Assembly: GCA_002711995.1 (NCBI GenBank)
Contig: PASN01000016.1
Span: 124,001-188,000, forward strand
Source of the DNA: Halobacteriovoraceae bacterium
Lineage (GTDB): Bacteria; Bdellovibrionota; Bacteriovoracia; Bacteriovoracales; Bacteriovoracaceae
Direction of reading: 5' to 3'
DNA: 64,000 nucleotides
The notes under the pieces: generated by a model
What the model was told of the DNA's origin: nothing
Database searches by the model: none
The model's input: only the letters and a program-made list of their open reading frames with translations
Position numbers and translations under genes: made by a program
Part shown: positions 6,941-31,252 of the stretch, piece after piece
Numbering within the stretch: position 1 is the first letter of the stretch
Layout: each line of letters starts with the position of its first letter

Positions 6941-6968
6941 TTTCTACCATAATATAAAATCATATAAT

Positions 6969-6992
6969 GGCCCTTTTAGAAGGGCCTTTTTC
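6969..6992 (+). terminator. rho-independent terminator
   Basis: GGCCCTT and AAGGGCC form a perfect 7-pair stem followed by TTTTTC. It ends the small secreted-protein transcript. Confidence 0.85.
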
Positions 6993-7197
6993 ATCGCTTA
7001 TAAATCTATCTACAAAAATAACTAAACACTAACTCTTCTCTACGAGTAGATTTCGTATTGATTAATAGTGTGAAGCTTGCTAGATAAAAGTCATGAGATC
7101 AATGTTCCGTTGGCCATTCATTCGTAATCTTCTTTGGTGTTGTTAAACATCAGTACTCATTTATTTCATTAAATTTATAATCCTTTGTGGAGATCTT

Positions 7198-12452: not shown

Positions 12453-13930
12453 TTTATAAAGAAGTGGACATTGTAGTAGTTGGTGCAGGCCCTGTTGGAC
12501 TAATGTGCGCATATCTTGGAGACATTTGTGGCTTGAATATTGTAGCAGTCGATAATAATGATGGACCACTGAAAGTTGGAAGAGCCGATGCATTAAATGC
12601 AAGAACACTCCAGCTTTTGGAATTAGCAGGGTTATTCAAAGAGTTATACCCTGAAGGAAAAATTTGTAATACTTCTTCCGTTTGGTCCAATGGAAGATTT
12701 ATTTCAAGACAGTCATCCTGGTGGGATGAAATAGAAGGTTGTTTTCACAAGCACTTTCTAATGCTTGGCCAGTCACACATAGAAAAATTGCTGGATCAAA
12801 AGCTGAACAGAACTAGCAATAAAGTCTTAAGAAAAACTGAGATAGAAAATATTGTGGCAACTACTGAGGGATGTTTGACAACGTTATCAACTGGAGAGGT
12901 AATTAAGTCAAAGTTTGTGATCGGAGCTGACGGTTCAAGGTCATTTGTGCGAAACCATTTCAAGATCCCTTTCGAGCTTATTAGACCTCAAATTACTTGG
13001 GCCGTTATAGATGGTGTGGTTGATACTGATTTTAAAAAAGTCCCTGAGATTATAGTTTTTCAAGCTGAAACTTCGGACGTGGCATGGATACCGCGGGAAG
13101 GAGAAATGGATAGATTTTATGTAAGAATGGACAGAGTAGACTTTACTCAAGAAGAAGTGCTTGAAAAAATTAACAATGCAATATTTCCACATTATTTAAC
13201 TTTTAAAGAGGTGGAATGGTTTTCACATTTTTCGGTCAAAGAGTCTGTAGCTGAATCATTTTACACTCAAGATAGAGTTTTTCTCGCAGGTGATTCGTGT
13301 CATGTTCATTCTGTTAATGGAGGTCAAGGACTAAATACCGGCCTGGCGGATGCTTTTAATCTTATTTGGAAACTGAGTTTGGTATTAAAGGGAGAAGCAT
13401 CCAGTGATCTTTTAAACAGTTATGAGTCGGAGAGAAGGCCAGTTGCTCAAAGTGTAATTGAGTCCTCGGGAGAGTTAGTTAGGGCAACAAAGTTCTCAGA
13501 GCGTGGAACCCACGCCCAAGATTATGTGAAAATTGTGGAAAAGCGTTCTGGAAATATTACGGGTATGGGAATTCGATATGGAGAAAGTGGGCTCAGAGGA
13601 ACAAGGGCCTTTGACTTTGAAATTTTTCGTGAGGCAGAAAAAACACGGCTGTATTCTCTTTTAGACTACAGAAAGTACACACTTTTAATTTGTGGCGATC
13701 TTGAGCCTCCTATGCATTTACCTGAAAGGATAAATTGCCTAAAAGTAAAATCCTTTAGGAACAATGGTGGATATTGGTCTAAAACAGCTCCCTATCATGG
13801 GCAAGCACTTTTGATTCGACCGGACTCGTATATTGAAAATAGTTTTAGCTTAGAGAAGGATACCTTTTCTGAGTTTTTGGCCGAAATGATTGAATGTATT
13901 ATTCCTAACAATCAAACATCAGAGGGGTGA
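12449..13930 (+). CDS. FAD-dependent aromatic-type monooxygenase, tailoring enzyme
   Basis: 493 residues. The N-terminal Rossmann motif VVVGAGPVGLM binds FAD. A DG motif lies in VIGADGSRSF, and the GD motif VFLAGDSCHVHSVNGGQGLN is the standard third signature of PheA/TfdB/PHBH-like flavin hydroxylases. The C-terminus has a shortened thioredoxin-like tail as in that family. This is a different enzyme class from the reduced-flavin PvcC of P. aeruginosa. I infer that it hydroxylates the aromatic ring or side chain of the isocyanide product. It overlaps the dioxygenase gene by 4 bases. No terminator is seen after it. Confidence 0.85.
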   Translation: MIYKEVDIVVVGAGPVGLMCAYLGDICGLNIVAVDNNDGPLKVGRADALNARTLQLLELAGLFKELYPEGKICNTSSVWSNGRFISRQSSWWDEIEGCFHKHFLMLGQSHIEKLLDQKLNRTSNKVLRKTEIENIVATTEGCLTTLSTGEVIKSKFVIGADGSRSFVRNHFKIPFELIRPQITWAVIDGVVDTDFKKVPEIIVFQAETSDVAWIPREGEMDRFYVRMDRVDFTQEEVLEKINNAIFPHYLTFKEVEWFSHFSVKESVAESFYTQDRVFLAGDSCHVHSVNGGQGLNTGLADAFNLIWKLSLVLKGEASSDLLNSYESERRPVAQSVIESSGELVRATKFSERGTHAQDYVKIVEKRSGNITGMGIRYGESGLRGTRAFDFEIFREAEKTRLYSLLDYRKYTLLICGDLEPPMHLPERINCLKVKSFRNNGGYWSKTAPYHGQALLIRPDSYIENSFSLEKDTFSEFLAEMIECIIPNNQTSEG

Positions 13931-14386: not shown

Positions 14387-15718
14387 ATGAAAAGAGCAGC
14401 TTTAAAAGACTTAGCAAATTGGTTGAGAAACCCTTATCGTAAGCCCTTAATCTTGAGAGGTGCACGACAAGTTGGGAAGTCGACCCTTGTTCATCTCTTT
14501 AGTGAGGATGAAGAATTAGACTTAATTGAGGTCAACTTAGAGGTTGAAAGACTGAGCTCAGTTGAAAAAAAGGAATTTAGACTTCAATCCCTTTTAGATG
14601 AAATACAGCTTAAAAAGAATAAGCGAATCACTAAAAATACACTCCTCTTCTTTGATGAAATACAAGAATCTCCAATGCTTCTTAAATATTTAAGATATTT
14701 CTATGAAAAATCTCCGGAGTTAAAAGTAATTGCTGCAGGCTCTCTTTTGGAGGTTGCTTTGCGTGCGGAGGACTTCTCATTTCCTGTAGGGAGGGTCGAG
14801 TTTTATCATTTAGGCCCAATGAGCTTTCAAGAGTTTTTATGGGCAACTGGTCAGAATTTTTTAGATCAAAAACTTACTGAATGGGATTTTAGTGACGAGC
14901 TTCATGAGGCCGCTATTGATGCTCTGAAGGATTATTACTATGTTGGAGGTATGCCTGAGGCTGTAAAGGTCTTCTCCGAAACACAAAGTTTGGTAAGAAT
15001 GAGGGAAATTCAAAGCCAGATAATTCAAACCTATCAGGCCGACTTTCCTAAGTATAATAAGAGAATAAATGTTCAGAGAATATCAAGAGTGTTTAACTCC
15101 TTGGCCTCAAGCTTAGGTGAGAAAGTTATCTTTTCTAAATTAGATTCTGAATCATTATCAAGGGATATAAAAAGAGTTGTTGAATTATTAATTGACTCAA
15201 GAGTTGTTTTGTCATGTCATCATTCAGATGGGAACAGCGTTCCCTTAGAGGGGGAAGTTGATTCAAGAATCTTTAAACCATACTTTATTTATATCGGGCT
15301 GCTAAATGCCATGTTGCGCCTTGATGTCGACTCAATTGATAGTGAGTTTCGAAACAACTTCAATACTAAAGGAATTCTGGCGGAGCAGTTCGTTGCTCAA
15401 CATTTGAACTACTTCCAAGGCCACTCATTAAATCCTTCACTATTTTATCATCTAAAGGATAAAGGTACTCAGAAAGCGGAAATAGATTTTCTAGTAGAGT
15501 CAGAACAAAACATATTTCCAATTGAAGTAAAATCAACTGCTAAAGGTCATTTAAAGTCATTAAAAAGTTTTTGTGAGAGGAAAAGTTCCCCAATTGGGGT
15601 TAAGGTATCTCTTGCAAATTTCACTATAGATGATGACTTTGTTAAAGACTGTAAGCTCGTTAATATTCCCCTGTATGCCATCGATTACCTGAAAAGCAAT
15701 TTGGGTAGGATTTTATAG
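14387..15718 (+). CDS. AAA_14/DUF4143 ATPase
   Basis: 443 residues. Walker A is GARQVGKST (25-33) and Walker B is LLFFDEIQ (Asp90, Glu91), followed by the arginine-sensor region. The C-terminal DUF4143 half ends in an IEVKSTAKG motif resembling nuclease-like restriction-endonuclease-fold domains (with EIDFLVESEQNIFPIEVKS giving the D-x(n)-ExK pattern). These proteins are frequent in bacterial accessory genomes; function is unclear, though toxin or DNA-related roles have been proposed. The gene ends 2 bases before the first copy of the tRNA-His 3'-end repeat, so it sits at the border of the island. Confidence 0.85.
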   Translation: MKRAALKDLANWLRNPYRKPLILRGARQVGKSTLVHLFSEDEELDLIEVNLEVERLSSVEKKEFRLQSLLDEIQLKKNKRITKNTLLFFDEIQESPMLLKYLRYFYEKSPELKVIAAGSLLEVALRAEDFSFPVGRVEFYHLGPMSFQEFLWATGQNFLDQKLTEWDFSDELHEAAIDALKDYYYVGGMPEAVKVFSETQSLVRMREIQSQIIQTYQADFPKYNKRINVQRISRVFNSLASSLGEKVIFSKLDSESLSRDIKRVVELLIDSRVVLSCHHSDGNSVPLEGEVDSRIFKPYFIYIGLLNAMLRLDVDSIDSEFRNNFNTKGILAEQFVAQHLNYFQGHSLNPSLFYHLKDKGTQKAEIDFLVESEQNIFPIEVKSTAKGHLKSLKSFCERKSSPIGVKVSLANFTIDDDFVKDCKLVNIPLYAIDYLKSNLGRIL

Positions 15719-15720
15719 CA

Positions 15721-15762
15721 AAAAAAAAGCCTTTCCGAAGAAAGGCTTTTAAAAATGGGGTG
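15721..15762. repeat. att-like direct repeat: tRNA-His 3' end plus terminator, copy 1
   Basis: These 42 bases are identical to 26348-26389: an A tract, hairpin GCCTTTC/GAAAGGC, T run, and TGGGGTG, which is the complement of the last seven bases of tRNA-His, CACCCCA. Integration at a tRNA 3' end commonly leaves such duplications. The hairpin with A and T tracts on both sides could terminate transcripts in either direction, including that of the AAA_14 gene. Confidence 0.85.
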
Positions 15763-15914
15763 ACATATTTGATTCTTGTAATCACCTAATATATGAGTTT
15801 TTTTTCTTGCTGAAGAAGCCAAAAGCCAGATTTTATGTAAATTTTTCATTTAGCTCGTAAAGTGAAAGTTTAAGGTCTAAAAAGTGGAAAAATTAATTTT
15901 ATTGGAGCAAACCT

Positions 15915-16655
15915 ATGAACATATTTGTCTACGCTTTTCTGGTTTTTTCTTCTTTGAGTGCATTTGGAAATGATTTTTCCCCTCTGCAAGAAGGTGTGTA
16001 CTACTACGATTGTCCTGAGGCACAAAGATATTGCTATGAGAGAACAACTTGGTACCGGTATGTTAAGCCAACATTTGATGAACTAGGGACGTTAAAGAAA
16101 GTAACCATTATGAGATCTAAAAAAGATGGTACCTTGGTTGGGTGGCCTGTAACTTTTTCATGTGTACAAGAAAATGAAGAATTCAACTGTGGAAACGGAT
16201 TCTTAATGGTCCGTAATCACGGCACAGGATTTAAAATGAAGGGGAAAAGAGCTTATACCAGTTATAGATATAACCTTCTTAAACGAGTTAAGAAAGAGTA
16301 TGGCCGTATTTATTGTAGTACAGCAGATGATAAGGGAAAGGTGATGCTCTACCTAGATTTAGACTCTAATGAAGTAAAGAATGTCTTTGCTGGAAAGTTT
16401 TCTTATACATGGAAAGAATATCTTTTTGGAGAAGACCACAGAAAGGATGAGCGCGCACCATCAGATATAAAACTTGAGAGGAATTACGATCAGGGGCAGG
16501 CAGTTTACAGGATAGGGAAGAAAGAGAAACTATTGCTTCAGATTTATTCGGATAAGACATTCACTCTCGAAGCTAACTTTTGTCATATTCATAATGGATG
16601 TAATTCCAAACAAGTTACTGGAATTTGTTCCAGCGTGGTTGGATTGGATTTTTAA
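15915..16655 (+). CDS. secreted Cys-rich protein, unknown function
   Basis: 246 residues. Signal peptide MNIFVYAFLVFSSLSAFG, then a mature domain with about nine cysteines and many Tyr and Lys residues. No transmembrane segment follows, so it is likely periplasmic or exported. It occupies its own module between an exact tRNA-His repeat and a variant one, and has its own terminator at 16687-16717. TTGGAGC precedes the ATG. No homologous family recognised by eye. Confidence 0.7.
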   Translation: MNIFVYAFLVFSSLSAFGNDFSPLQEGVYYYDCPEAQRYCYERTTWYRYVKPTFDELGTLKKVTIMRSKKDGTLVGWPVTFSCVQENEEFNCGNGFLMVRNHGTGFKMKGKRAYTSYRYNLLKRVKKEYGRIYCSTADDKGKVMLYLDLDSNEVKNVFAGKFSYTWKEYLFGEDHRKDERAPSDIKLERNYDQGQAVYRIGKKEKLLLQIYSDKTFTLEANFCHIHNGCNSKQVTGICSSVVGLDF

Positions 16656-16686
16656 TTTTTTTTAAAAATTGTCGATAAAAATAAAC

Positions 16687-16717
16687 AAAAGCCCAGCATT
16701 TCGCCGGGCTTTTTTTG
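16687..16717 (+). terminator. rho-independent terminator
   Basis: AAAAGCCC pairs with GGGCTTTT around a GC-paired inner stem and an ATTTC loop, then seven T. It matches the terminator at 9575-9600 except for one loop base. Confidence 0.85.
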
Positions 16718-16737
16718 TGGGAAGATTAAAGCACAAA

Positions 16738-16781
16738 AAAAAAGCCCTAATCAATTGATCAGGGCTTTTTAAAATGGGGTG
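16738..16781. repeat. variant tRNA 3'-end/terminator repeat, hairpin replaced
   Basis: A tract, hairpin with AGCCCTAATCA/TGATCAGGGCT arms, T run, then AAAATGGGGTG, the same tRNA-His terminal seven bases as the other copies. Only the stem sequence differs, while the flanks match. It may be an att site whose terminator came from another element or another tRNA. Confidence 0.6.
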
Positions 16782-16874
16782 TTCTATGAAAACCGCCAAA
16801 TAGTTCGGTACTCATAAGCCCATTAATTGATAAAAAAGCTTTAACTAATTTCCTGTTTTTGTCGAAAAGTAATC

Positions 16875-18371
16875 ATGAAAGTACTTTTGACCATGGTCGC
16901 ACTACTAGTGTTAAAGGTCGGTTACGGCCAAGATATTGCTGCATTAGATAAACTATTAGAGAAATCTGATAACTCTAAAGACTTTATTCTATCTCTTCCT
17001 CCTGAGTTTAGAAGCCACTATGTGCTCCTATATGAAGGACATGCTGGGACTGAGGCAAGTGTAACATCTCCTCGCATGATTTTTTATAATACGAGTACTT
17101 ATATTGCTGTGGGTGAAGGCGATGTAGAAATTATGGAGTGGGACTCTTCAAAAAAAGAATATGACTTTTATAGATATGAGCCCAAACCCGGAAATTCTTA
17201 TAAAAAAGTTAACATTGATGTACAGAAAGACTGTATCCGTTGCCACACCCAAGGAGAAGCTATTTGGGAAGACTACGCAACGTGGTGCGGAGTCTATGGT
17301 GGCACAAACGATGATACTCCTTCCGAAGCTGAGAAATATTGGTTAGCGCAATATTCAAAAGAGTTTAAAAGTGTTTTTCCACTCGAAGAGCTTACTGCTG
17401 AGAGGGAAAAGTTCAAATCAAATCCAGATCCTTGTCAACCAGGTCGTTCACATGAACTACATGGAGGACAGGCCTTAGGAAACGTTATTGGATACAGGCA
17501 ATTAGAGAAAATAACCCATAAAGTTAGAAGCTCTGAAGTTTATCAAAGTGATCCCGTTGCGATCCAAAAAGCATTTTGTGCATCATCTGTTTTTAACTCT
17601 ATTGCAACACTAGAGGTAGGACAAAGTGAAAGCTTCAAAGCTTTGGTGGACGAGCTGACTGACTTTCTTGCTCCTAGTGAAGAACAGAGGAAGAAGTTGT
17701 TGCAAGAAATGAAAGAGTTTTCCAGTGAGTGGGAGGCTCTACTAAGAAATAAATACAAGTTTAGAGGAGAAGAGCTGGAGTATGAGTTGGCAAAAGACGG
17801 GTATGCATATGCAATCCCTTTTTTGCAAAGAAAAGTCCTCTATAAATTAGGGCTAAGTGAGCCAGATATTAATACAGGTCATAATCGGCCGGATCCGGGG
17901 AAACTATCTAAAGCTCTTAATCCTAGATGTGCCAGGCCTATGTTTAATAGTAAAAATATTAGAAATGGACATAGTGGCGAGTATCCTAAAATTTCAAGTG
18001 GCTTTGGTTCTAGTAATGGAGAAGAGAGGCTTTCCGCAATTTTGGCAGGTGATTTTGGCCAGGACTTATAGACTCACCATTTGTCATTGAATGATAAAGG
18101 AACAATGACCTTAAAGGATCCTGACAGCAATAAAGTTAGGTCTTTTTGCAAAAAGTTAATTGAAGGTGAAATAGTCCAATCTGATTGCAACAGCTCAAAG
18201 GGCAAAAAAAGCCTTTCTTTTGGTGATCAATTATGGAACCTATCTCAGGAAGAGGCTAAGAGGCGTGAGTGTGAAGGAAAGCGTAAACCTGTGTCAGACC
18301 CTTGGGAAGAGATGGGGGATGATGCAACACAGGATGCAAAGCGACTTATTGATTCATTTTTTCAGAAGTGA
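16875..18371 (+). pseudogene. secreted haem-binding CxxCH protein with in-frame amber
   Basis: The first open stretch (398 residues, 16875-18071) has a signal peptide (MKVLLTMVALLVLKVGYG) and a single c-type haem motif CIRCH (120-124), so it is a probable periplasmic cytochrome-like protein. It stops at TAG 18069-18071. The frame continues in phase without another stop for 100 codons to 18371 (reading THHLSLNDKGTMTLKD and onward), with protein-like composition and two more Cys. I infer one original ORF of about 499 codons broken by a nonsense mutation, or a truncated protein with non-coding remainder. The second half has no obvious start or ribosome-binding site. Function unknown. Confidence 0.65.
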
Positions 18372-18529
18372 CATTGAAGCTACTGGTTCGCTCGATAAGA
18401 AGGCGACCAAAAACACTTAAATTGATCTACTTTAGACTTTTTTAAAATGGAATTTGATAGTCAGTCAGAGGTCAGTCAAAAATTGGCCAAGCGAAAGAAA
18501 GGGCATGAAATAATCTGAAAGATACGAGG

Positions 18530-18598
18530 TTCTGACCAAGATCGCGACTATGACCCTGTTTGTAAGTGATTTAAATTAGTTGATGGAAATAAAAAAGC
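18530..18598. repeat. dispersed repeat, copy 2 (partner 14052-14118)
   Basis: See the partner. The right edge runs straight into the A tract of the att-like repeat at 18591. The 158 bases before it, from 18372, show no gene. Confidence 0.7.
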
Positions 18599-18629
18599 CT
18601 TTCCGAAGAAAGGCTTTTAAAATGGGGTG
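18591..18629. repeat. att-like direct repeat: tRNA-His 3' end plus terminator, copy 2
   Basis: Same hairpin GCCTTTC/GAAAGGC and terminal TGGGGTG as the tRNA-His copy at 26348-26389, with a shorter A tract and one A fewer after the T run. It opens the largest module, which runs to the tRNA gene. Confidence 0.8.
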
Positions 18630-18670
18630 ATGAACTTTTTTCTTGGAGTTCGCCCAACCGCCAAGTCCAA

Positions 18671-19078
18671 ATGACTAATATTACTCAATTACCAGTCAAA
18701 AATGAGTGGCGAAATAAGGAACTTTTACATCAAAAATACGTCGTTGAAAGGCGAAGTTTAAACGAGCTGGCGGTAGAGTTTAAAGCTGCAAGATGTACCA
18801 TTTCAAAACAAATGAAAGCCTTTGGAATACATACTCGGATTACGGGATCAGTACAAAATAGAAAGCGAGGGCTTGCTTATGGCGAGAAGTGTCGAGATAG
18901 AAAGTTAAGAGCACATAAAAGAGAAACTGAGAATATTCAAAAAATGAAAGACCTTCGAGATAAAGGCTTCAGTTATTGGAAAATAGCAGAGATCTTCAAT
19001 TCAATGGAGATTCCTACAAAGACTCGAAAGGGGAAGTGGTATGCTAAGACAATTCAACAAATACTGGATAAAGCTTAG
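18671..19078 (+). CDS. HTH protein, resolvase/recombinase-like C-terminus
   Basis: 135 residues, very basic. Residues about 20-50 (VVERRSLNELAVEFKAARCTISKQMKAFGI) look like a helix-turn-helix. The C-terminal part (LRDKGFSYWKIAEIFNSMEIPTKTRKGKWYAKTI) resembles the DNA-binding recombinase domain of serine recombinases, in which a helix-turn-helix is followed by an IPT.RGK.W motif. It may be a regulator or a DNA-binding accessory of the island. It is convergent with the helicase pseudogene, overlapping its end by 4 bases. A divergent partial copy lies at 22806-22959. Confidence 0.6.
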   Translation: MTNITQLPVKNEWRNKELLHQKYVVERRSLNELAVEFKAARCTISKQMKAFGIHTRITGSVQNRKRGLAYGEKCRDRKLRAHKRETENIQKMKDLRDKGFSYWKIAEIFNSMEIPTKTRKGKWYAKTIQQILDKA

Positions 19079-21522
19079 TGCATCTCTGAGAACATATCAG
19101 CTTGATAAATTAAGTGATTGGCCTTGTTTGAGCTATCAGATATGATTTCATATTCCATTTTCTTATAAACAGGGACTCTCTTTTTAAACATATTAATTGT
19201 AAGCCCATTGTTCGCATCTAGATAGTCATAGATTCTGACTTCTTTTTTGTTTTCAAATGGGCGATGTATTCTTCCTGCGTATTGAATCATTCTTCCTTTG
19301 AATGAGATAGGCATTGTAATAAGTAAGGTGTCCAATATTGGAAGGTCAAAACCTTCTCCTATAAATGATCCTGTGGATAATATGTAAAATGGCCTCTTAT
19401 CTTTAATACAGTTATCTATGTTGGCCAATATCTCTTTTTTCTGCTTTTTGCCCATCTCACCAACAAGTATAAATTCCTTTGCCTTAAGTTTTTTAGATTT
19501 TAAGGAACGAGATAAATGAGAAATATGATCTTTTCTTTCAGAAATAATTAGAGGGTACCTATTTTGTTTTAATTCAGTCTCTATATCAGCGGTGATTTGA
19601 TTTGTACGTTCTTGATTATTTACAATTTCTGTCCAAATCTCATGAATTTCAAGACGTCTTTCTAGATGAACAGGAAATTGTAAATTGGTATCTCTAACAA
19701 ATATTAGTTTATTTAAATCTTTTGCTCCAAAGTCTTCCATTTCATATCGAGTTGGACCAAGTTGCATATGTATAATAGACTCATGACCATCTTTTCTATA
19801 TGGAGTTGCTGTTAAGCCGATAAAGTATTTGGCCGGAATCTTTTTAAGAACGGCCTCAAAAGAAACAGCTGGTATGTGATGACATTCATCTACAATAATT
19901 TGTCCGTAGCTATTTAAAAGTTCATCACTGTCTTCTAATTTTGATAAAGTTTGAATCATAGCAACATCAACTTTTCCTTTTGGTTTTTTACGGCTTCCTC
20001 CAAAAGAGCCTACTTCTTTAGGATCAATATCTAAAAATTCTTTAATACGCTCAATCCATTGTTCCATAAGTGGTTTTCTGTGAACGAGAATAAGAGTCGG
20101 AGTTTTTCTCTTTGCAATGAGATGGCAACCCATAACTGTTTTACCAACTCCTGGAGGAGCAACTAATACACCTGTATCAAACCTACTCATCTCCTTCATT
20201 GCCTTTTTCTGATCAGGTCGTAATTCTCCGGTGAATTTGATTTTTAGTCTTTTATGCTTTGCCCGCTCATCAAAGATATTAACAGTAGCACCAACATCAT
20301 TTGCAATCTTTATACAATCATCAAGTCGACCTCTTGGGATAGACATTTCTGATCCATGGTTGTCACTACAGCAAATAAATCTTGGTGTATCCCATGTAGA
20401 AAAACGCATTCTTTGCTTCTTGTAAAACTCAGGATTGGCAAAAGTTGCTGTTCTTCTTAAGGCACCAATAAGTGGGTCTGGTAGTTCTTCAATATTTATA
20501 AATACTTGCTCAGCTAATCTAATGTTTATTGCGTCACTGTATTCTTCCAGTTTAACTTTTTTATTAATTGCATCGAGCGTTCTCTCTGTAATCTTAATAT
20601 CAAAGTTATCTCCATCAAATATAAGATCTTTTGTAATATTCTTCTCAATTAAAGAATCAACTTCATTTTGTGAAAGAACTCTAGCTGTAGATAATAGATC
20701 CCACTGATCTTTAATAGGGGTGAAATCTTCATCTACAAATAATGTATTACCTTGATTTCTAGCATGCCTTTGGAGTGGTAGTGCAATCAAGTTACCAAAC
20801 CCTCCATTTGGCAGAGAGTCTTGATTGGGAAAGAACCTGTCATGACTGCTAAGTTTTATTTGCTTTGATAGTGCTGAAGCTTTAACAAGAATCAGTGTGC
20901 CTAGTTGCCTTGCTTTTCTAGCAAAGACAGGCTCCTCAAAGAAAATCCATGCATGAGCACCATTTCAAGATTTTGAAATTGCAATATAAGTTTCTATACC
21001 TAACTCTCTGGCAGCATGCTTATAGGCAGTAACATCTTTTTTCCAAGATTCTTTATCAAAGTCAGCAGCAAGAAAAATACAAGTATTATTTGATCGTATG
21101 GCATAAGTTCCAGCAATGTGAATTCCTTGCAGGTGATTTTTGATGGCAATGTCATCTAGAGGAAGAAAAGCTTGGTAGTTACAGTCAGTGCACTTAATTT
21201 TTGGTTTATTGCAAATCGGCCTAACCCATTCATTTGAACAAACAGGAGAATAACCCTTTTTATTGTTCTTGTTATTTTCCCAAAAACGAGGAAAGATATC
21301 CTCTCTACAGCAAAACAATCTTTTAAATAGTTGTATTTTAGCCTCTGGAGATTCAGGCTTTTGAAAGTTTAGCTTTCTTCCAGTTAAAGGTACGACATTA
21401 GTTTCAGATTTTCTTAAATCCCTAAGCTGTGCAAGTAGTTGCGCACGTTCATTGTTAAGAAGCTCTAATCTCTTTTCTATTTCTTTAATTTGAGAATCAG
21501 TAGTGGAGTTGTCATTTTTCAT
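19075..21522 (-). pseudogene. TOTE-type primase-helicase with opal codon in primase motif
   Basis: One frame of 816 codons, split by TGA at 20965-20967. Residues 1-30 are coiled coil. The archaeo-eukaryotic-type primase domain follows: REDIFPRFWEN, CNEWVRPIC, a KCTDC zinc-like pair and the acidic AADFD. The break falls at SKS-stop-NGAHAWIF, where homologues have S-G-N-G-A-H, so a GGA Gly codon became TGA in the catalytic motif. Downstream lie RFFPNQD, then a superfamily-2 helicase: Walker A APPGVGKT (about 455-462), DECHH (about 545-549) and motif VI QYAGRIHR. TOTE proteins belong to proposed phage or plasmid conflict systems. The primase half would lack its second motif and the helicase half could be separately translated from 20790 (ATG, MIALPLQ). 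Its start overlaps the end of fic by 4 bases. Confidence 0.85.
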
Positions 21523-22568
21523 TTATTGATTAAGACCCATTTTGCTCCACGGCCTTTACCCTTAGTTTGAATAGTATTTTCATCCCTCATTTCTCTAAGA
21601 ACGATACGAATCATATCTCTACTGATCCAAGGAAACTCTTTTTCTATGTCAGATATTGAGAATGCTCCTAATTGCTTCATGACAAATTGCCGGACCTGAT
21701 TACTTTTTGATCCTTTCCCTGGATTGATTGTGCCAACCCTCTCTTCAAATTCTTTATAGGCCTTTAATAGTGCTACCCAAAAATAGTTTAACCAAGGAAG
21801 AGGATCATGCTTATTTTCATGCCAGCCTTGTGAACTTTCCTCTAGTGTTCGATAGTAATCTTCTTTTGATTGCTCAAAAATTCTTTCTAAACTTATATAG
21901 CGTCCCACCTGATAATCAAAATGATACAAAAGAAGTAAAGTAAGTAGTCTCGCAACACGTCCATTTCCATCTGAGAATGGGTGAATACAAAGAAAATCGA
22001 GAACAGCCAGTGGAATAACGACAAGAGGATCAATCATGTTTTTATCAATTATAGATCTATAGTTTTCCTCAAGCTCTTGCATATACTTGGGTGTTTCAAA
22101 AGCAGCGACTGCTTTAAATCGAACTCTCACTTTTCCGCTGGGCAGAGTTTCAATAATTTCATTATCGGTACTCTTCCATCTTCCACCTGGAGTAGGCATA
22201 TACTTATAAATATAAGTATGCAGCTGAAGAAGAACATTCGAGCTAAATGGAATGTCCTCAAATAATTCATGTATTAGGGCAAGTGCGTCTCTGTAACCAG
22301 CGACTTCTTGCTCTGATCTATCTTCAGGTGTTGTATCTCCAAGAATTAGTTTCTCAATTCTATCTGGTGAAACCTCAATCCCTTCAAGTCTGTTTGAAGA
22401 TTCACTGGATTCAATAACTGCAACTTTTTGAAGGCCTTGTAAGACTTCAGGTGATTGCTTAGAGTAGAGAATTTGCTTGCCTTGGTATTCACCAAGCATA
22501 CGGAGTGTGGCCAACTCAGTTTGGCCGAATTTAATGTTTTCTAAGTAGTTTTCGTTTAATGAGTTCAT
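21519..22568 (-). CDS. Fic-family AMP/nucleotidyl-transferase, class II
   Basis: 349 residues. The complete Fic loop HPFSDGNGRVAR (196-207) has the catalytic His196. An upstream inhibitory helix reads SNRLEG (58-63), fitting the S/T-x3-E-G/N pattern that marks class II Fic proteins, self-inhibited by Glu62. The C-terminus looks like a winged helix (FSISDIEKEFPWISRDMIRIVLREM), found in transcription-linked Fic proteins. It modifies target proteins with AMP (or another nucleotide moiety) in this family. Its stop overlaps the TOTE start (ATGA), so the pair was one operon; I infer a joint defence role. All key residues look intact. Confidence 0.9.
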   Translation of the reverse strand: MNSLNENYLENIKFGQTELATLRMLGEYQGKQILYSKQSPEVLQGLQKVAVIESSESSNRLEGIEVSPDRIEKLILGDTTPEDRSEQEVAGYRDALALIHELFEDIPFSSNVLLQLHTYIYKYMPTPGGRWKSTDNEIIETLPSGKVRVRFKAVAAFETPKYMQELEENYRSIIDKNMIDPLVVIPLAVLDFLCIHPFSDGNGRVARLLTLLLLYHFDYQVGRYISLERIFEQSKEDYYRTLEESSQGWHENKHDPLPWLNYFWVALLKAYKEFEERVGTINPGKGSKSNQVRQFVMKQLGAFSISDIEKEFPWISRDMIRIVLREMRDENTIQTKGKGRGAKWVLINK

Positions 22569-22805
22569 AATAGGGTAATATTATACAATAGGGGTAAAAT
22601 AAAGGTCAAATTACCTACTTTTTTATGTTTTTGCCCCATTTAATTACATTGTAATTTCAATAGATTACATCTGTGGCAGAGGTGGTCGCCTCGGATAAAT
22701 ACGCAATTCATGTGATCCAACCGGTTTTACGATTTCTAATTACTATTAAGTCTAAGTGTTTGATATTATTCAACTTTTACCTCCTGAGACATGGGGGAAT
22801 AAATA
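22569..22805. other. spacer upstream of fic, no gene seen
   Basis: About 240 bases. It contains the presumed fic promoter on the reverse strand and AT-rich sequence. I see no gene here, only the approach to the HTH remnant. Confidence 0.4.
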
Positions 22806-22959
22806 GGCTTTATATCAAAAATACGTCGTTGAAGGCTTAGGAATGAGAGAGCTGACGGTAGAGTTTAAAGCAGCAAGAGAGACGATTGCAAAGCAACTTA
22901 GGTTGTTTGAAATTTCGATAAGGAACGCTGGGTCAAACCAGAATCATAAAGCTCTTTAA
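22806..22959 (+). pseudogene. partial diverged copy of the 18671 HTH gene
   Basis: Translated forward from 22809 (frame LYQKYVVEGLGMRELTVEFKA, then RETIAKQLRLFEISIRN) this matches residues 17-55 of the 135-residue HTH protein at 18671 (LHQKYVVERRSLNELAVEFKA). It has no start codon or C-terminal domain and ends at TAA 22957-22959. It overlaps the end of the reverse-strand gene at 22898. It is a remnant of a tandem or earlier copy of the same element. Confidence 0.7.
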
Positions 22960-23557
22960 GTATGGGATTAACTCTAGTGTTAATGTCGAGGGCCAATAAA
23001 AGATGGTTTCCTCCACATTTAAGCATCTGGGTATTGAGAATTTTCTCGATTTCATCGATGTGGAGTACCTCTCCAGTCGTTGAGATCTCCTTGTGCTCTT
23101 TAAGCTTTAGGTTATCCTTCTTTCCTTTGATTCCAAGCTCATACCTCTTTTGCAGGATATGACAATTACTGTGTCGAAGGTTTTCTAGTAATATTAGTTC
23201 ATCTCTGGTTAATAATTGCTTAAGTTCTCTCGCTTTGTCTCGAATCTGGAACATATCTCCAAGAATATCCTTACCATCGTAATTTAAGGGAGATAGCTTT
23301 TCACACATTTCCAGATTGTCAGCCCCTAACTTTTTGAGAGTATTTTCAAACTCATCACCGAATTCGACTATCGTTGCATATAGTCTAATCCAGAAAAGGG
23401 ATTCAAAAGATCCAGAATCGGCGTGTCCTAGATTTGTTATGAGCCAGTTCGAAACATGTAGGGTTGTACCTATCCACTGCTTCTTTTGTAGGGCATGAAT
23501 ATCACCTTTTGATAAAATTGAATCAGCCAGTTTTTGTTTGTCTTCATCTTCTAGCAA
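22898..23557 (-). CDS. hypothetical protein beside AAA_13 remnant
   Basis: 219 residues starting with TTG 23557, one base after the stop of the AAA_13 remnant on the same strand, a spacing that suggests translational coupling. Helical and charged, with no membrane segments. It has two Cys (CGGNH near the C-terminus and an ECH-like SNCH) but no motif that I recognise. A partner role to the former ATPase is possible; homology is unknown. Confidence 0.55.
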   Translation of the reverse strand: MLEDEDKQKLADSILSKGDIHALQKKQWIGTTLHVSNWLITNLGHADSGSFESLFWIRLYATIVEFGDEFENTLKKLGADNLEMCEKLSPLNYDGKDILGDMFQIRDKARELKQLLTRDELILLENLRHSNCHILQKRYELGIKGKKDNLKLKEHKEISTTGEVLHIDEIEKILNTQMLKCGGNHLLLALDINTRVNPILKELYDSGLTQRSLSKFQTT

Positions 23558-23558
23558 G

Positions 23559-23878
23559 TTAACTCTCTTCTTTCATCATCATTTCATAATGTGAATCATG
23601 GGCGGATTGGTAAAATATTTCTTTAAAGACATTCATGTACTGATCTATAACTTCAGGTCCTTCAGTGACATACAAGTCATCATGAACAGAGTGTGAACCA
23701 TCATTGACCCATGATAAAAGTGACTTGCAAATGAACTGTTCTTTACCTGTGAATTTCAAGTGGAGATCTTCTAGTTTGATATTACCCATGATCTTGAAGT
23801 AGTTCTCTAGAATTCTTCTAAGTATGTTTTGTATAGTAAGAAGGCATTTATCTTCAGACTTTGCTTGTTGCCATAATA
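23559..23878 (-). pseudogene. C-terminal remnant of AAA_13-type ATPase
   Basis: Reading the reverse strand in the frame of MGNIKLEDL (ATG at 23789) and continuing upstream gives LLWQQAKSEDK, TIQNILRRILENYFKIM, then WVNDGSHSVHDDLYV and a C-terminal HYEMMMKEES. RRILENYF and NDGSHSxxDDLYV are typical for the C-terminal lobe of AAA_13/RloC-like ATPases of defence loci. An in-frame TGA at about 23880 and loss of everything before it leave only about 110 residues. The Walker motifs are gone, so it cannot be an active ATPase. Confidence 0.75.
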
Positions 23879-24036
23879 GTCATACGAAGTCTTTATTGAA
23901 GACGGGCAAAGAGTTGAAATACCAAATGAAAAGTTCACTGATGGTCGTGTGGAAGTAAAGCACAATCTCCCATTTTTTCATTTATAGAAAACCATAAATT
24001 TCTACCAATCATTTCTTAGTTGTTTAAAATACTTCC
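23879..24036 (+). other. possible decayed coding sequence
   Basis: Forward reading gives a partly protein-like stretch (FIEDGQRVEIPNEKFTDGR, then HNLPFF) broken by TAG, then KTINFYQSFLSCLKYFLESG. I cannot assign a family. It may be part of the zinc-ribbon/recombinase remnant that follows. Confidence 0.3.
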
Positions 24037-24219
24037 TTGAAAGTGGAAGAACGAACTCTACATTTAACATCCGATGATGAGCCTTTAATGAAGGTTTGTA
24101 GTCGTTGTAAGAGAAATCTTCCTAATTCAGCCTTTTATCGGAATAAGTCAAAGAGGGATGGAGTCGAGAGTTACTGTAAAGAATGTGCAAAACATCGCAA
24201 TTTACTCAAAAGAATTTAA
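24037..24219 (+). pseudogene. zinc-ribbon (HNH-nuclease-like) fragment
   Basis: 60 residues. CSRCKRNLPNSAFYRNKSK then SYCKEC gives a CxxC...CxxC zinc ribbon of the type that opens phage HNH endonucleases (a CSKC..LP.S.FYKNKS... YCKEC consensus). The HNH catalytic domain itself is missing, so this is likely a truncated remnant. The annotated start is provisional. Confidence 0.6.
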
Positions 24220-24224
24220 AAAAA

Positions 24225-24443
24225 ATGATCTCTTTTCAGGCGACTTCTCTTCCATTTGGTGCAGTTATTGATAAAGAGCTTTTTGATAAGACACAGGCCA
24301 ATGTAGCTGTCGTAGAAAAACTAAGGGGATTTAATAAAAAGCGGTCTCGCTTATATGCCCTTACTGGTATTTTACAATTTGAGGATGGCTCTCGTTTTAC
24401 TGGTAACTCTGGTACTGCTCGAAATGGTGAACCAAAGTATTAA
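24225..24443 (+). pseudogene. serine recombinase fragment (recombinase domain/C-terminal)
   Basis: About 73 codons. AVIDKELFDKTQANV, then RSRLYALTGILQFEDG and FTGNSGTARNGE, match the piece of large serine recombinases that joins the recombinase domain to the zinc-ribbon part (the family reads V..ELFD.VQ ... ALTGIL.. CG..FTG.SG). The zinc Cys positions are replaced (FEDG for a CG pair). The resolvase catalytic domain with its Ser is absent. It marks a former integrase of this island. It overlaps the end of the zinc-ribbon fragment region. Confidence 0.65.
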
Positions 24444-24636
24444 GTTAGCTCTTTAATAATGTACTCTACCGGTAATTATCGTGCGCTCTAGGCGCTTGTT
24501 TTCACGTTTTTAAGTAACTCACCATTTTTGGAATTTTACGGCCATGCGTCTACGGCCGTGCGAAATGAAAAGCCTTTTATTCTGCTTTAATTTTTGTCGC
24601 CAAACACAAATTAAAAAAGAAACAAAAGGCCCTCTT
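24444..24636. other. spacer before transposase
   Basis: Roughly 190 bases. It holds a hairpin ACGGCC/GGCCGT (24539-24560) and A-rich sequence. One IS end must lie in it, but I could not align terminal inverted repeats with the downstream side. Confidence 0.35.
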
Positions 24637-25923
24637 ATGATTAAAAATACTATTGAATTTGAAACAACAAGAAAAGACCTAACTCACTTATCAGGCCTGG
24701 TTTTCTTTCAAAAACTCGTTAAATCAACAAGTTTGGATAGCATCATAGGTCAAATAATTCCAAGCAAAAAGCGACTTAGAGGTCAATCCAACAAAGAAAA
24801 ATTCTTTACTGCCCTCTATTCCTTCATCGCAGGAGCTGACTGCATCGAAGATATAGAGATGTTAAAGCACGACCCTTTATTTAACGAGATTGCCAACAAA
24901 CCCTGTAGTGCTGTTACTATGGAAAGATTCTTAAAAAGCTTTAAGCTAAAGACCTATGAAAAACTGCAAAACGAACTTGCTCGCCTGGCCTATCGCCTTC
25001 GAGAGAAACTCTACCCAGATAATAATGCTTTAATTCTAAGCATGGATTCAACTCCACATCAACAATACGGAAAGTACATGGAAGGGGTCGACTGGAACTA
25101 TAAAAATATGTGGTGCCTGGACTCTCAAAACTGTTTTGACCAATTTGGATTTTGTTATGGTTGGCACTTGCGTGAAGGCAACACCTACTCTGCAAATGGT
25201 GCCGTCGAGATGCTTACGCGTATCTTTAATAACATCCCTAAAAACAAGGATGTCTTTTTTCGTGCAGACAGCGCCTATGGCAATAAAGGAATTTACAACA
25301 GTCTTCTCACTAACAGGGCTCACTTTGCAATTTGTCTTAAAGAAAATGTTTGGAAGCCTCTATTAAGGGATTATGAGAGCAAAGTGAAATGGAAGAAGAC
25401 CGACATCTACTTTTTCGACTCCAACAAGTGCGAGATTGGTTCTTGCCTTTATCCTTTAAAAGATTTGGCAATGGGAAGAACTTTTTTAAGAGTGGTCTTT
25501 ATTCGCGCCAAAAAGAAAAGGCTGGGACCTGGAGACAAAGAGTATTACCACCACTATGCAGTTGTCACCGACATGTCTGATAAGCAAATGAACGACGAAC
25601 GAGTCATTAAGTTCTACAAGAAGCGGGCCAACGTCGAGAACCAAATAAAAGATTTGAAAAATGGGATGGATTTTAAACACTTTCCTTGTCAGAAACTCAA
25701 TGCGAATCGAGCTTGGGGCATGATAGCCATCTATGCATACAATCTCATGCGCTTTGGAGCTCATAAGCTGCACAGGAAAAAAGGCTGTTTTCTCAAAACC
25801 GTCAGAAGAGAAATGATCTTCATCGCTAGTGAAATCAGAAAGGGACAACGAAAAATAAAGCTGCGTTTTACAAACCATATGTACCAGGAGGTGGAGAGAC
25901 TAGAAATTATGATGACTTCTTAA
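24637..25923 (+). CDS. IS1380-family-like DDE transposase
   Basis: 428 residues from ATG 24637. The upstream in-frame start at 24544 is less likely because its 31 extra residues are not family-like. Catalytic acids fit the IS1380 pattern: Asp137 in LSMDSTPHQQYGK, Asp211 in FRADSAYGN and Glu334 in KRANVENQIKDLKNG. HFPCQKLNANRAW in the C-terminal part is also typical of this family. Full length with no internal stop, so the element could be active. It is probably the latest insertion into the decayed island, next to the recombinase fragment. Inverted repeats and target duplication were not identified. Confidence 0.85.
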   Translation: MIKNTIEFETTRKDLTHLSGLVFFQKLVKSTSLDSIIGQIIPSKKRLRGQSNKEKFFTALYSFIAGADCIEDIEMLKHDPLFNEIANKPCSAVTMERFLKSFKLKTYEKLQNELARLAYRLREKLYPDNNALILSMDSTPHQQYGKYMEGVDWNYKNMWCLDSQNCFDQFGFCYGWHLREGNTYSANGAVEMLTRIFNNIPKNKDVFFRADSAYGNKGIYNSLLTNRAHFAICLKENVWKPLLRDYESKVKWKKTDIYFFDSNKCEIGSCLYPLKDLAMGRTFLRVVFIRAKKKRLGPGDKEYYHHYAVVTDMSDKQMNDERVIKFYKKRANVENQIKDLKNGMDFKHFPCQKLNANRAWGMIAIYAYNLMRFGAHKLHRKKGCFLKTVRREMIFIASEIRKGQRKIKLRFTNHMYQEVERLEIMMTS

Positions 25924-26347
25924 CTAGGTTTTGACCGATCAGATGTTTGTGGGCAAGGCCCTCCATGCTGACAGTTCTTTGACAACTGAATATCAAAACC
26001 AGCTGAGCTATCGCTGCATGATTTAGGAAGGAAGACGAAGTCTTTACCAGCCCGACTTTGTCTTCGCGAGGCGTTTTTGGGTCAGCTCGTAAAATATGGA
26101 CCTGAACGGAGGGTATAAAATGCACTGAAGGCACATTAAAAAACTTTGCTGTAAAAAATTTGAGAAAAATTAGGGTGAAGTTATGAAATTTTGGGGAATT
26201 TGGCTTCCCATAAGTGAGATAAGGAACTTAGTGAAGGATTTGGGATTGACGGAGAAAGCATTATTTCTTCCCAGTCACTTGGCGAGTGCATGTAATCTAT
26301 CGCTAATTGTTGAAGTCTAGGTTTGTAGTGGTTCTAAAAGTTTAGGT
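25924..26347. other. IS flank and spacer up to tRNA-His repeat
   Basis: About 420 bases. The right IS end is expected here. A small forward reading frame of 45 codons (ATG 26183 to TAG 26320, MKFWGIWLPISEIRNL) has a purine-rich upstream stretch (GGGTGAAG), and could be a remnant of a replication-initiator-like protein whose N-termini often read KFWGIW. No further gene is seen. Confidence 0.4.
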
Positions 26348-26389
26348 AAAAAAAAGCCTTTCCGAAGAAAGGCTTTTAAAAATGGGGTG
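26348..26389. repeat. att-like repeat, original copy: 3' end of tRNA-His plus terminator
   Basis: Reading the reverse strand: tRNA-His ends CACCCCA, then follows the terminator hairpin with a T tract. These 42 bases are repeated exactly at 15721-15762 and nearly so at 18591-18629. The tRNA gene itself stays complete here, so this is the intact chromosomal site. Confidence 0.85.
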
Positions 26390-26459
26390 GACGATGGGAC
26401 TCGAACCCACGACAAACAGAACCACAATCTGCTGCTCTACCAACTGAACTACGCCCACC
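26383..26459 (-). tRNA. tRNA-His (GTG), CCA encoded
   Basis: On the reverse strand GTGGGCG pairs with CGTCCAC in the acceptor stem. An extra 5' G opposite C73, the tRNA-His hallmark, is present, and CCA is encoded. The anticodon loop is TTGTGGT, giving anticodon GTG with stem GCAGA/TCTGT, and the T-loop GTTCGAGTC is standard. It is the boundary of the 14-26 kb island. Confidence 0.95.
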
Positions 26460-26650: not shown

Positions 26651-27256
26651 ATGAAAAGAATTATTTTAGCTGTTGCCATGATGGTTTCTACTGCTGCTTT
26701 CGCCACTACCGTTGGCCTTTCTACCCACCCATTCACTATGAATAAAAGCGTTGTGACCACAGAGTTTAATTCTTACCTGTCATCAGGGGATGGCATGGGA
26801 ATTACTGCCAAATATTTTCAAAGAGTTAGCAACAAATTAAATGTTGATGCTGGATTTGGTGTAACTGATGGTGATAGAGCAAATAGACTATTTGCAGGTG
26901 CAGATTATGAGCTATTTCCAGATTATGGAAGACAGCCAAGAGTATCTATCAAGTCACTTCTTGAAACCAACGAAGTAGACGGAGACCGAATCAATTCTTT
27001 GGGATTTGCTCCAACTCTTTCAAAAGGCTTTTCAATCTACGGTAAGGAAGCTTTCCCATTTGTTGCTCTTCCGATGAGTGTGGGTCTAAACACAAATGAA
27101 GGAACTTATGAAACAATTACAGCTCTTTCTGCTGGTATCACTGGAAGACTTCCAGTTAGAGGTTTTGAGAGCCTTGTAGGCAATATTGAGACAAACTTCA
27201 ACCTAAGAAACAGCTATACGGCCCTAGTAATGGGTCTATCTATGCCTCTACAATAA
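26651..27256 (+). CDS. putative outer-membrane beta-barrel protein
   Basis: 201 residues. Signal peptide MKRIILAVAMMVSTAAFA. The mature part has alternating hydrophobic and polar residues (YFQRVSNKLNVDAGFGVTDG, ALVMGLSMPLQ) and ends on a hydrophobic residue, features of small porin-like barrels. No cysteines. RBS GAGGGAG. The HAD gene starts 5 bases after it, so the two may be co-transcribed. Confidence 0.6.
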   Translation: MKRIILAVAMMVSTAAFATTVGLSTHPFTMNKSVVTTEFNSYLSSGDGMGITAKYFQRVSNKLNVDAGFGVTDGDRANRLFAGADYELFPDYGRQPRVSIKSLLETNEVDGDRINSLGFAPTLSKGFSIYGKEAFPFVALPMSVGLNTNEGTYETITALSAGITGRLPVRGFESLVGNIETNFNLRNSYTALVMGLSMPLQ

Positions 27257-27260
27257 ATTT

Positions 27261-27995
27261 ATGAAAATAGTATTTTCCGACTTCGACGGCACCCTGACTG
27301 TAAACGGTAAATTGGGTGCCTTTTTTTTTGACCTTCTTGATATCATCGAAAAAAACAACTCTGAGCTAGTAATCGTCTCCGGACGCTCTCTTTCGTGGGG
27401 ACATTTTCTTCTAACTCACTTTCCTCTAAAGCATGCCATCATGGAAGGTGGGGGAGTTATTCTTTCTAAGAATGTGGACGGCGTAATTTCTGAAGAATTC
27501 TTAGTGAGTGACGATGAACTTGAAAGACTTGAGAGTGTAACGGCCAAGCTTCAGAGAGATGTTCCTGAAACGGTATTGAGTGTGGATAGCTTTGGCAGAA
27601 AGTCAGATCGCGCCATAGAGTTTTCCCAAATGAAACAAACAGATGTGGAAAAGGCCGAAAGTTATCTTTTAAAAGAGAAGGCAAATTTCACTAGAAGCAA
27701 TGTGCACGTAAACTTCTGGTACGGAGATATTTCAAAGAACTTTGCAGTGAACTATTTCCTTAAAAACTATACTCCTCACATTAAAAAAGAAGAGACTATC
27801 TTTTATGGGGACTCTTTGAATGATGAATCCATGTTTGAGAGCTTTCCCAATACGGTAGGCGTATCCAACATCATTAGCGTTCTAGACGAGCTTTATCATA
27901 AGCCAAAAATTATTTTAGAAGGAAAAGAGAATGCTGGGGCATTCGGAGTCTTAAACCACCTGAAAGAAATCTTTAATCAGAGCATCGATTTTTAG
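27261..27995 (+). CDS. HAD-superfamily hydrolase, Cof/sugar-phosphatase-like
   Basis: 244 residues. Motif I SDFDGTLT (Asp7 and Asp9), motif II VIVSGRS, and motif IV FYGDSLND are complete, with the Lys of motif III before it. The cap resembles IIB-type (Cof) phosphatases. Cytoplasmic; substrate unknown, probably a sugar phosphate or phosphoglycolate-like compound. It converges with the pseudouridine synthase gene, overlapping by 45 bases. Confidence 0.82.
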   Translation: MKIVFSDFDGTLTVNGKLGAFFFDLLDIIEKNNSELVIVSGRSLSWGHFLLTHFPLKHAIMEGGGVILSKNVDGVISEEFLVSDDELERLESVTAKLQRDVPETVLSVDSFGRKSDRAIEFSQMKQTDVEKAESYLLKEKANFTRSNVHVNFWYGDISKNFAVNYFLKNYTPHIKKEETIFYGDSLNDESMFESFPNTVGVSNIISVLDELYHKPKIILEGKENAGAFGVLNHLKEIFNQSIDF

Positions 27996-29027
27996 ATTCA
28001 ACTCATCAATACTTAGTGATTTAAAGTTGTCCTCTATCCAAGGGATAAAATCATTTGGTATTTTAGTTTCTAGAAGAAGTGAATCTTTTTCACTTGGATA
28101 GGCGATCACAAGTGCCATTGCGTGAAGAGCATGTCTTGAAATCTGCATGAGATCATGATCTTCTTCCGTTGCAACTCCATCTTTAAACCTTCCAAAGACA
28201 CTCGGGTCACCGCTGTAAAGCTTGTCTCCTATAAGAGGCAGCCCATAGTGTGCGGCATGAGCTCTAATTTGGTGCTGTCTTCCAGTCTTTGGAAATGCAA
28301 GACCTAAAAGGTACTTATCGTTTTCAGCTACTTTTAGGAAAGTGGTCTTCGCCTTTTTACCTTTGGAAGAACTCTCGTCATAACAATGCACATAGAGTCT
28401 TGGGATGAAATCATCCTCCTGTCCAAGTCTTTCGTTGGCAACGATAGGAAACTCATTATCTTGTTTTTTATGTGCCATGAAGAAATAGCATTTTTGAACT
28501 TTTTCTTTTTCAAATAGTTCCCCACAAAGTTGTGCGGCCTTTGGATTTTTACCCAAAAGAAGAGCTCCACTTGTTTCACGGTCAAGCCTGTGAATTGAGT
28601 GAACCGTTTTATTGTACTTTGTCTCCAAAAAGACTGTGGCGCAATTAAAGAGTCTTTTACCAGTAGGGTGGGTGGTCATGTAAGCAGGCTTTGAAATCGC
28701 GACGATATTTTCATCCTCGTAAATGATTTCTGGAACTAGATCAAGCTCGAGCTTTTCACCTCTCCAGTACTCGTCTTCAAGGTCACCTCTTGGAGTGCTC
28801 ACTGTGATCTTTTCGCCCTCGTAAACCTTAACGCTTGGCTTGTGGGGAAATGGACGATTATGGATTTTAACCTGTCCAATTTGAATCTTCTTTTTGATTT
28901 GTTGCCTGGAAAAGCTTGCAAGGTAGTCCATTAAGAACTGGTCAAGTCTTAGGCCATCTTGGTCTTCTTCAACCTCCAAGACGGCCTCAAATAATTGTGA
29001 TGTAAATTTCTTTTTTATTTCGCCCAT
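27951..29027 (-). CDS. RluA-family pseudouridine synthase with S4 domain
   Basis: 358 residues. An N-terminal S4 RNA-binding domain (LRLDQFLMDYLASFSRQQIKKKIQIGQV) precedes the catalytic domain. The catalytic Asp lies in IHRLDRETSGALLL, and GRQHQIRAHAAHYGLP closes the active site. It isomerises uridine in rRNA or tRNA (RluC/RluD type); exact position not assigned. It lies 3 bases from the PrkA-like gene and may be co-transcribed with it. Confidence 0.92.
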   Translation of the reverse strand: MGEIKKKFTSQLFEAVLEVEEDQDGLRLDQFLMDYLASFSRQQIKKKIQIGQVKIHNRPFPHKPSVKVYEGEKITVSTPRGDLEDEYWRGEKLELDLVPEIIYEDENIVAISKPAYMTTHPTGKRLFNCATVFLETKYNKTVHSIHRLDRETSGALLLGKNPKAAQLCGELFEKEKVQKCYFFMAHKKQDNEFPIVANERLGQEDDFIPRLYVHCYDESSSKGKKAKTTFLKVAENDKYLLGLAFPKTGRQHQIRAHAAHYGLPLIGDKLYSGDPSVFGRFKDGVATEEDHDLMQISRHALHAMALVIAYPSEKDSLLLETKIPNDFIPWIEDNFKSLSIDELNLKIDALIKDFFQVV

Positions 29028-29030
29028 AAT

Positions 29031-31238: not shown

Positions 31239-31252
31239 ATACACTTCCTACT

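Follow-up and report, generated by a model that had tools for sequence, protein, structure and literature searches.

A 64,000-nucleotide stretch from a Halobacteriovoraceae bacterium (GenBank assembly GCA_002711995.1, contig PASN01000016.1, positions 124,001 to 188,000, forward strand; referred to here as the window) carries an array of gene modules on the 3' side of its tRNA-His gene, each bounded by copies of the end of that tRNA. We consider it probable that this array consists of tandem integrative elements stacked at the tRNA-His 3' end by a phylum-wide family of large serine recombinases (LSRs), and that integration splits the LSR gene itself, with a small C-terminal piece, here called SMALL, at the opposite end of the element from the catalytic part. 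The anatomy of the sequences is well supported; that the full-length enzyme would be active, its split form stuck and the gene rebuilt in arrays is a model.

The intact tRNA-His(GTG) gene lies at 26383-26458 on the minus strand (ARAGORN; Rfam RF00005), and the target site is its 3' end, at the low coordinate. Four copies of this end occur in the window, all in one orientation on the minus strand, with the 3' side of tRNA-His towards lower coordinates: copy 4, the tRNA-proximal junction (26348-26389), comprises the last 7 nt of the tRNA and a terminator hairpin (-13.2 kcal/mol on the minus strand); copy 3 (18591-18629), a distal tRNA end plus hairpin followed by the SMALL gene, has a one-base deletion relative to copies 1 and 4; copy 2 (16735-16781) has the TTTTAAAATGGGGTG end of the others with an unrelated hairpin (-19.5 kcal/mol); and copy 1 (15721-15762) is the distal-most tRNA end plus hairpin. 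The original prediction, made from the letters of the sequence, had reported a 42-base tRNA-His 3' end plus terminator repeated exactly at 15721-15762 and nearly at 18591-18629, with an intact tRNA at 26383. Base-level alignment agrees, the 42-base string AAAAAAAAGCCTTTCCGAAGAAAGGCTTTTAAAAATGGGGTG being identical at 15721-15762 and 26348-26389 and copy 3 lacking one base, and adds the copy at 16735-16781, which had been missed, for a total of four. The repeat itself stands, with the correction that its tRNA-derived part is only 7 bases, TGGGGTG (reverse complement CACCCCA), the remainder being trailer and terminator hairpin; in copy 2 the AAAATGGGGTG end is common to the others and the hairpin differs, reading GCCCTAATCAATTGATCAGGGC.

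Exact direct repeats of at least 25 bases in the window are confined to these core copies. With up to two mismatches allowed, the window has four occurrences of TTTTAAAATGGGGTG, where 0.45 would be expected (no shuffle of 100 gave as many), and GGCTTTTNAAAATGGGGTG, searched in the same way through the whole 3.7 Mb genome, matches only three of the four copies, copy 3 falling outside the pattern owing to its deletion. Ordinary terminators spread over the genome, the reservation attached to the original prediction, are ruled out, as the end copies are confined to the tRNA-His locus. The hairpin-distal flank has a different sequence at each of the four copies, as expected if the tRNA end is the junction, and the combination of an intact tRNA at one end with a co-oriented copy of its 3' end at the other is that of a tRNA-anchored island. 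A possible reading of the hairpins beside the copies is that they are tRNA-His trailers, a native one, probably displaced to copy 1, together with others that came in from outside. Simple hairpin trailers at tRNA-His are also present in relatives (G019), and a two-hairpin native trailer of the kind seen in G001 was found neither in the window nor in the contig to its left. Separately, in another genome (L096, G011:C4) a tRNA-His trailer of ~90 bp, both hairpins included, is repeated at both ends of an element, which suggests trailer capture.

The SMALL gene (18671-19078, plus strand) encodes 135 aa, with a helix-turn-helix and half of an LSR 'Recombinase' domain (Pfam PF07508) matching the RD domain of the SPbeta integrase; the profile match covers residues 174-244 of the solved SPbeta integrase. 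The closest match of its predicted structure (mean predicted local distance difference test score, pLDDT, 82.5) is again the SPbeta integrase, with Bxb1 also listed, at weak Foldseek E-values. The gene has its own ATG at 18671 and its frame is open back through copy 3, to 18593; we interpret the gene as the detached C-terminal part of an LSR. Homologues are present in 24 of 59 family genomes and 130 of 291 phylum genomes (in contig profile searches, a single-protein query recovered 0 loci and an alignment query 15), and in relatives they mostly lie 47-49 bp inward from a copied RNA 3' end. The RNA ends beside them, identified by end sequence and by ARAGORN where the RNA gene was on the same stretch, are those of tRNA-His, -Asp, -Pro, -Met and -Asn, and of tmRNA. 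All 42 homologues with an identifiable core have an open reading frame (ORF) that runs through the core copy, and in 25 of the 42, counted by hand, no start codon (ATG, GTG or TTG) precedes the conserved domain or falls within its early part. Purifying selection acts on SMALL (dN/dS mostly ~0.05-0.3), and copies group in its tree by target RNA, with 6 label changes where the minimum is 5 (shuffled mean 19.7; 0 of 200 shuffles as low). Such a pattern fits a possible role in choosing or binding the site, and would also be expected from co-inheritance of SMALL with the recombinase. Few or no homologues were found in viral and phage collections, and three partial ones in plasmids, so these are not described phage elements.

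The remainder of the putative enzyme is found in intact elements of relatives (L098, L101, L035 and others), where an LSR gene overlaps the RNA gene at the end opposite SMALL. The protein consists of a resolvase catalytic domain followed by a Recombinase domain (PF00239 and PF07508 in L101 and G131), and at 18 of 18 junctions, with tRNAs for His, Asp, Leu, Met, Val, Asn and Ala, its ORF continues unbroken through the tRNA 3' end. In some relatives tmRNA is also targeted, the core there being the tmRNA 3' end. The shared core in most relatives examined is 6-9 bp plus flanking A/T, a short core of the LSR kind, and the codon phase of LSR and SMALL across it agrees in all 12 pairs measured, which come from 10 genomes and represent all three phases; two further copies in G109 are likewise in phase. 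Because neither gene meets a stop within the shared core and the two are in one frame there, a circle formed from the joined ends would carry one ORF of ~670 aa with the attachment site inside; circles joined in this way hold single ORFs of 667 and 672 codons. The attachment site thus lies within the integrase reading frame in relatives; in the window SMALL is open through the core and the LSR half is decayed. One intact tRNA-His element (L101, G068) also carries, at 5447-8271, an LmuA/LmuB (Lamassu-type) pair by PADLOC profile.

Uninterrupted genes of the same composition also exist. A genome from another family of the same phylum (G207) holds two intact LSR-core-SMALL genes of 787 and 752 aa from the start codon, with the tRNA-His end in the reading frame (AAATGGGGTCGC and AATGGGGTGACCGATTGG). 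On another contig of this genome lies a sister of the second SMALL part, at 84% identity over 705 bp; the match begins at the core, and beyond the core a terminator hairpin takes the place of the recombinase sequence of the intact gene. From this alignment, intact gene and sister look as they would before and after a single insertion. It is the sister homology ending at the core, taken with the existence of uninterrupted genes and the shared frame, that argues for integration splitting the recombinase gene. Further cases are a partial in-frame LSR-core-SMALL ORF with a tRNA-Asp core (G097) and a 659-aa LSR-SMALL fusion with no TGG core at its junction (G131), by which the two parts also occur as one uninterrupted protein. 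At 182-2234 of L146 (G102:C216) an LSR adjoins SMALL in a different frame, with an A9 run between them and no TGG core at the junction; the frame difference is a frameshift, a slippage site or an assembly error. G131 and G102 are used solely as support for the two parts making one protein.

Upstream of tRNA-His, genes for an outer-membrane protein, a HAD phosphatase, and RluD-like and PrkA-like proteins (26651-31244 in the window) mostly keep their order in family relatives, and on the 3' side gene content differs in nearly every one; a conserved upstream side beside a variable 3' side marks an integration hotspot. Named relatives include Bacteriovoracaceae, Halobacteriovorax and Bdellovibrio-related assemblies. 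In the same-genus genome G001 the sequence beside tRNA-His, on a 5.8 kb contig, is a different one, and no clean empty allele of the window site was found among the relatives. Repeated integration at the tRNA-His 3' end, as originally predicted, remains the best reading of copies that are locus-specific and co-oriented beside a variable 3' side. The accompanying claim, that elements with different cargo had stacked there, is strengthened by multi-unit SMALL arrays elsewhere: five in tandem after tRNA-Pro (G008), and two or three at tRNA-His (G125), tRNA-Asp (G122) and tmRNA (G109, G076). The five units in G008 (L088/L089, G008:C1) are without LSR, and their cargo is paralogous secreted-protein genes and a pair that, by eye, is HipAB-like. 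A further unit at tRNA-Pro, of ~1 kb (L099, G010:C132), consists only of SMALL and one membrane-protein-like gene.

A mechanism can be proposed in which LSR and SMALL on the excised circle would form a continuous gene that contains the attachment site. Its full-length product would integrate the circle, so splitting the gene that encodes it, and the split element would then be stuck until full-length enzyme was supplied from elsewhere. Alternatively, release might follow when a new unit puts its SMALL behind the resident LSR, rebuilding a gene that may be chimeric. That serine integrases across the phylum split their own gene at a tRNA or tmRNA 3' end, with the next unit of an array rebuilding the gene, at times in chimeric form with a new DNA-binding part at the C-terminus, is a broader proposition that we put forward tentatively, at a little under even confidence. 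If true, integration would be one-way with no need for a separate directionality factor, and the retention of the C-terminal piece by units lacking an LSR would be explained.

The window itself holds three modules. Module 1 (15763-16734, ~1.0 kb) has one secreted-type ORFan gene (15915-16655, plus strand) and no recombinase gene; the protein has no Pfam hit and occurs in one of 129 family genomes, its own. Module 2 (16782-18590, ~1.8 kb), again without a recombinase gene, has one gene (16875-18071, plus strand) and a small ORF (18081-18371), and matches to the gene, mostly weak, occur in 18 of the 129 genomes including its own. Sought as mobile cassettes elsewhere, module 1 was absent from the other genomes of the 129 and module 2 gave weak matches only, so there is no independent evidence that either has moved. 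With end copies kept and no recombinase gene, both resemble cis-mobilizable elements (CIMEs), which keep attachment (att) sites and lack integration and transfer genes, and in the proposed mechanism they would be units that have lost, or never had, recombinase parts. Module 3 (18630-26347, ~7.7 kb) is probably two eroded units, 18630 to ~22700 and ~22700 to 26347, because it contains the SMALL gene at 18671, a second, eroded SMALL with a stop inside (22762-22950, plus strand; 54% identity over 63 aa) and an 86-aa LSR fragment (24183-24443, plus strand) that matches the LSR of G021. Where the rest of that LSR would be expected lies an insertion sequence (IS)-type DDE transposase (24544-25923, plus strand; Pfam PF13701). 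The window LSR is decayed and no intact LSR match was found in the organism's own genome, for which reason the array is probably a stranded fossil of a self-splitting system.

Other genes of module 3 include a TOTE-type primase-helicase on the minus strand, with its helicase part at 19075-20790 (AEP-TOTE, ResIII) and its primase part at 20965-21522 (PF22548, E 1.2e-42); two ORFs parted near 20790-20965 indicate a gene that is probably broken. Beside it is a SoFic-like Fic family gene (21519-22568, minus strand; Pfam Fic, PADLOC SoFic E 9.5e-37). To the left of the array, an AAA_14/DUF4143 ATPase (14387-15718, plus strand), a PADLOC candidate (PDC-S01), ends 3 bp before copy 1 and belongs to the flank or to an older unit. 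A bare TGGGGT at 14262, ~125 bp upstream of this ATPase, could be an older end copy; such 6-mers are common, it is without context, and an older core left of copy 1 is not claimed. Further left in the window, 10549-13930 holds a row of three genes beside a LysR-type regulator (an unnamed gene and, by eye, a TauD-like dioxygenase and an FAD monooxygenase), possibly a small biosynthetic cluster. Outside the window, to its left, a diverged second SMALL (G000:C16:97566-97961; L108 9566-9961) points at a tRNA-Met ~2.3 kb off, which suggests that this genome has a further, eroded element of the family.

Several points weigh against the interpretation of the array as the work of self-splitting LSRs. 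The mechanism is drawn from sequence, and neither excised circles nor reads were seen. There is no intact LSR in the window, whose link to the LSR system consists of SMALL, the 86-aa fragment and the relatives, and modules 1 and 2 carry neither SMALL nor LSR nor any recognisable mobility gene, so that only their end copies assign them to this system. Three of the copies share a ~35 bp hairpin beyond the core; this lies outside the usual 6-9 bp, and hairpin-bearing ends of non-autonomous units therefore call for some additional explanation, such as the capture of tRNA trailers. Several of the LSR/SMALL pairs are tens of kb apart or on different contigs, the pairs are partly interrelated, and the relatives are mostly draft or metagenome-assembled genomes. 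Repeats of 42 bp, moreover, are more like the direct repeats of tyrosine-type integration than like short LSR cores, and might indicate serial islands placed at the tRNA-His 3' end by tyrosine integrases that were then lost, leaving CIMEs, with SMALL unrelated to integration. Accretion and decay to CIMEs are well documented (PMC5704250), and tyrosine recombinase genes are present in the organism's own genome; none of these, however, is in the tRNA-His region, the enzyme at tRNA-His and other RNA genes in relatives is an LSR, the end copies there are mostly 6-9 bases plus flanking A/T, and the constant distance from SMALL to the core counts against tyrosine-integrase accretion. We judge this account quite unlikely. 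Duplication of the tRNA terminator on the spot, by slippage or homologous recombination and with no integration at all, would account for three of the four hairpins being the same sequence, but the cargo differs between copies, copy 2 combines the same tRNA end with an unrelated hairpin, no two copies have the same sequence beyond the core and other tRNAs show this architecture too, all of which makes it very improbable.

Two further alternatives accept the LSR and dispute the meaning of the split. SMALL might be an independent accessory protein, a directionality factor or regulator kept beside the distal att site for its regulation, with the frame match incidental. The window SMALL and some other copies do have their own ATG (at 18671 in the window), and LSRs commonly use a separate directionality factor, whose fusion to the integrase can control direction (PMC5737554). 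Against an independent protein stand the frame match in every measured pair, the many copies without an early start codon, the uninterrupted G207 fusions with the core inside and the 659-aa G131 fusion without a junction core, and we regard it as rather unlikely. Reading of the LSR into the tRNA could instead be a by-product of a phage-type attachment site (attP) placed at the gene's 3' end, the extra C-terminal part having no function. The authors who described DsiB in Dehalococcoides list such a trivial explanation, that the variable C-terminus does not matter (PMC3146451), and in the tRNA-side form of the LSR the tail is antisense tRNA only; the purifying selection on SMALL, its recognisable DNA-binding fold and a tree that follows the target RNA nevertheless leave this explanation unlikely.

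Amongst known systems, the Dehalococcoides ssrA islands with DsiB are the nearest described case: a serine recombinase, tandem islands at the 3' end of an RNA gene marked by end repeats, a recombinase ORF that overlaps attL without a stop of its own, and some islands without an integration module (PMC3146451). Their authors suggested in 2011 that full function of dsiB may be restricted to the circle or to sites where a neighbouring island supplies the 3' fragment it lacks (PMC3146451). Those islands target tmRNA by insertion in the T-loop, have 20-bp repeats, and no conserved 3' fragment was found in them (PMC3146451), whereas in the present elements such a fragment can be recognised as a conserved DNA-binding domain, the core corresponds to the CCA/acceptor end, and the targets comprise eight kinds of tRNA besides tmRNA. 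The tmRNA core here is the 3' end and not the T-loop that defines ssrA genomic islands (ssrA-GIs), and the present elements are set apart from DsiB by this description. Archaeal 'suicidal' tyrosine integrases (SSV1, pTN3, pT26-2) likewise have the attachment site inside the integrase gene, which is split on integration, and, as in the model proposed here, their integrated copies need intact enzyme from elsewhere and chimeras have been proposed (PMC8371274). They differ in class and host, being tyrosine enzymes of archaea where these are serine enzymes of bacteria; the present system would work alike without being a member. Streptococcal accretion of integrative and conjugative elements (ICEs), integrative and mobilizable elements (IMEs) and CIMEs shares the tandem stacking at one site and the decayed members that keep only att sites, with mostly tyrosine integrases and no integrase gene described as split (PMC5704250). 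Phage Mx8 IntP has a C-terminus altered on integration, as cited in PMC4383910, and that citing paper mentions neither the loss of a separate conserved domain nor arrays. The Ccr recombinases of the staphylococcal cassette chromosome (SCC) belong to the same LSR family, and the L101 LSR and the G131 fusion match the CcrA/B/C models at scores well below the cut-offs; they are accordingly not filed as Ccr.

Each of these facts has precedent, and it is the combination of serine-type, tRNA-targeting and self-splitting that appears to be new; it was not found in the open-access literature, with subscription papers and preprints mostly uncovered. According to a 2014 database paper, serine integrases had no known tRNA gene targets (PMC4383910), tRNA is not mentioned in a large LSR survey (PMC10083194), and a 2021 review confines self-disrupting recombinases to archaea (PMC8371274). 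For a large bacterial group related to Bdellovibrio, the sequences described here point against the statements on serine integrases and tRNA and on the archaeal confinement of self-disruption. If the function is confirmed, these elements would equip serine integrases, in wide use as genome-insertion tools, with a simple, built-in switch that works one way; they would also be a source of LSRs directed at conserved tRNA ends and would answer the question of the missing 3' fragment raised for DsiB in 2011. For the bacteria themselves, they offer a testable model for the growth of gene arrays, defence genes included, at tRNA sites.

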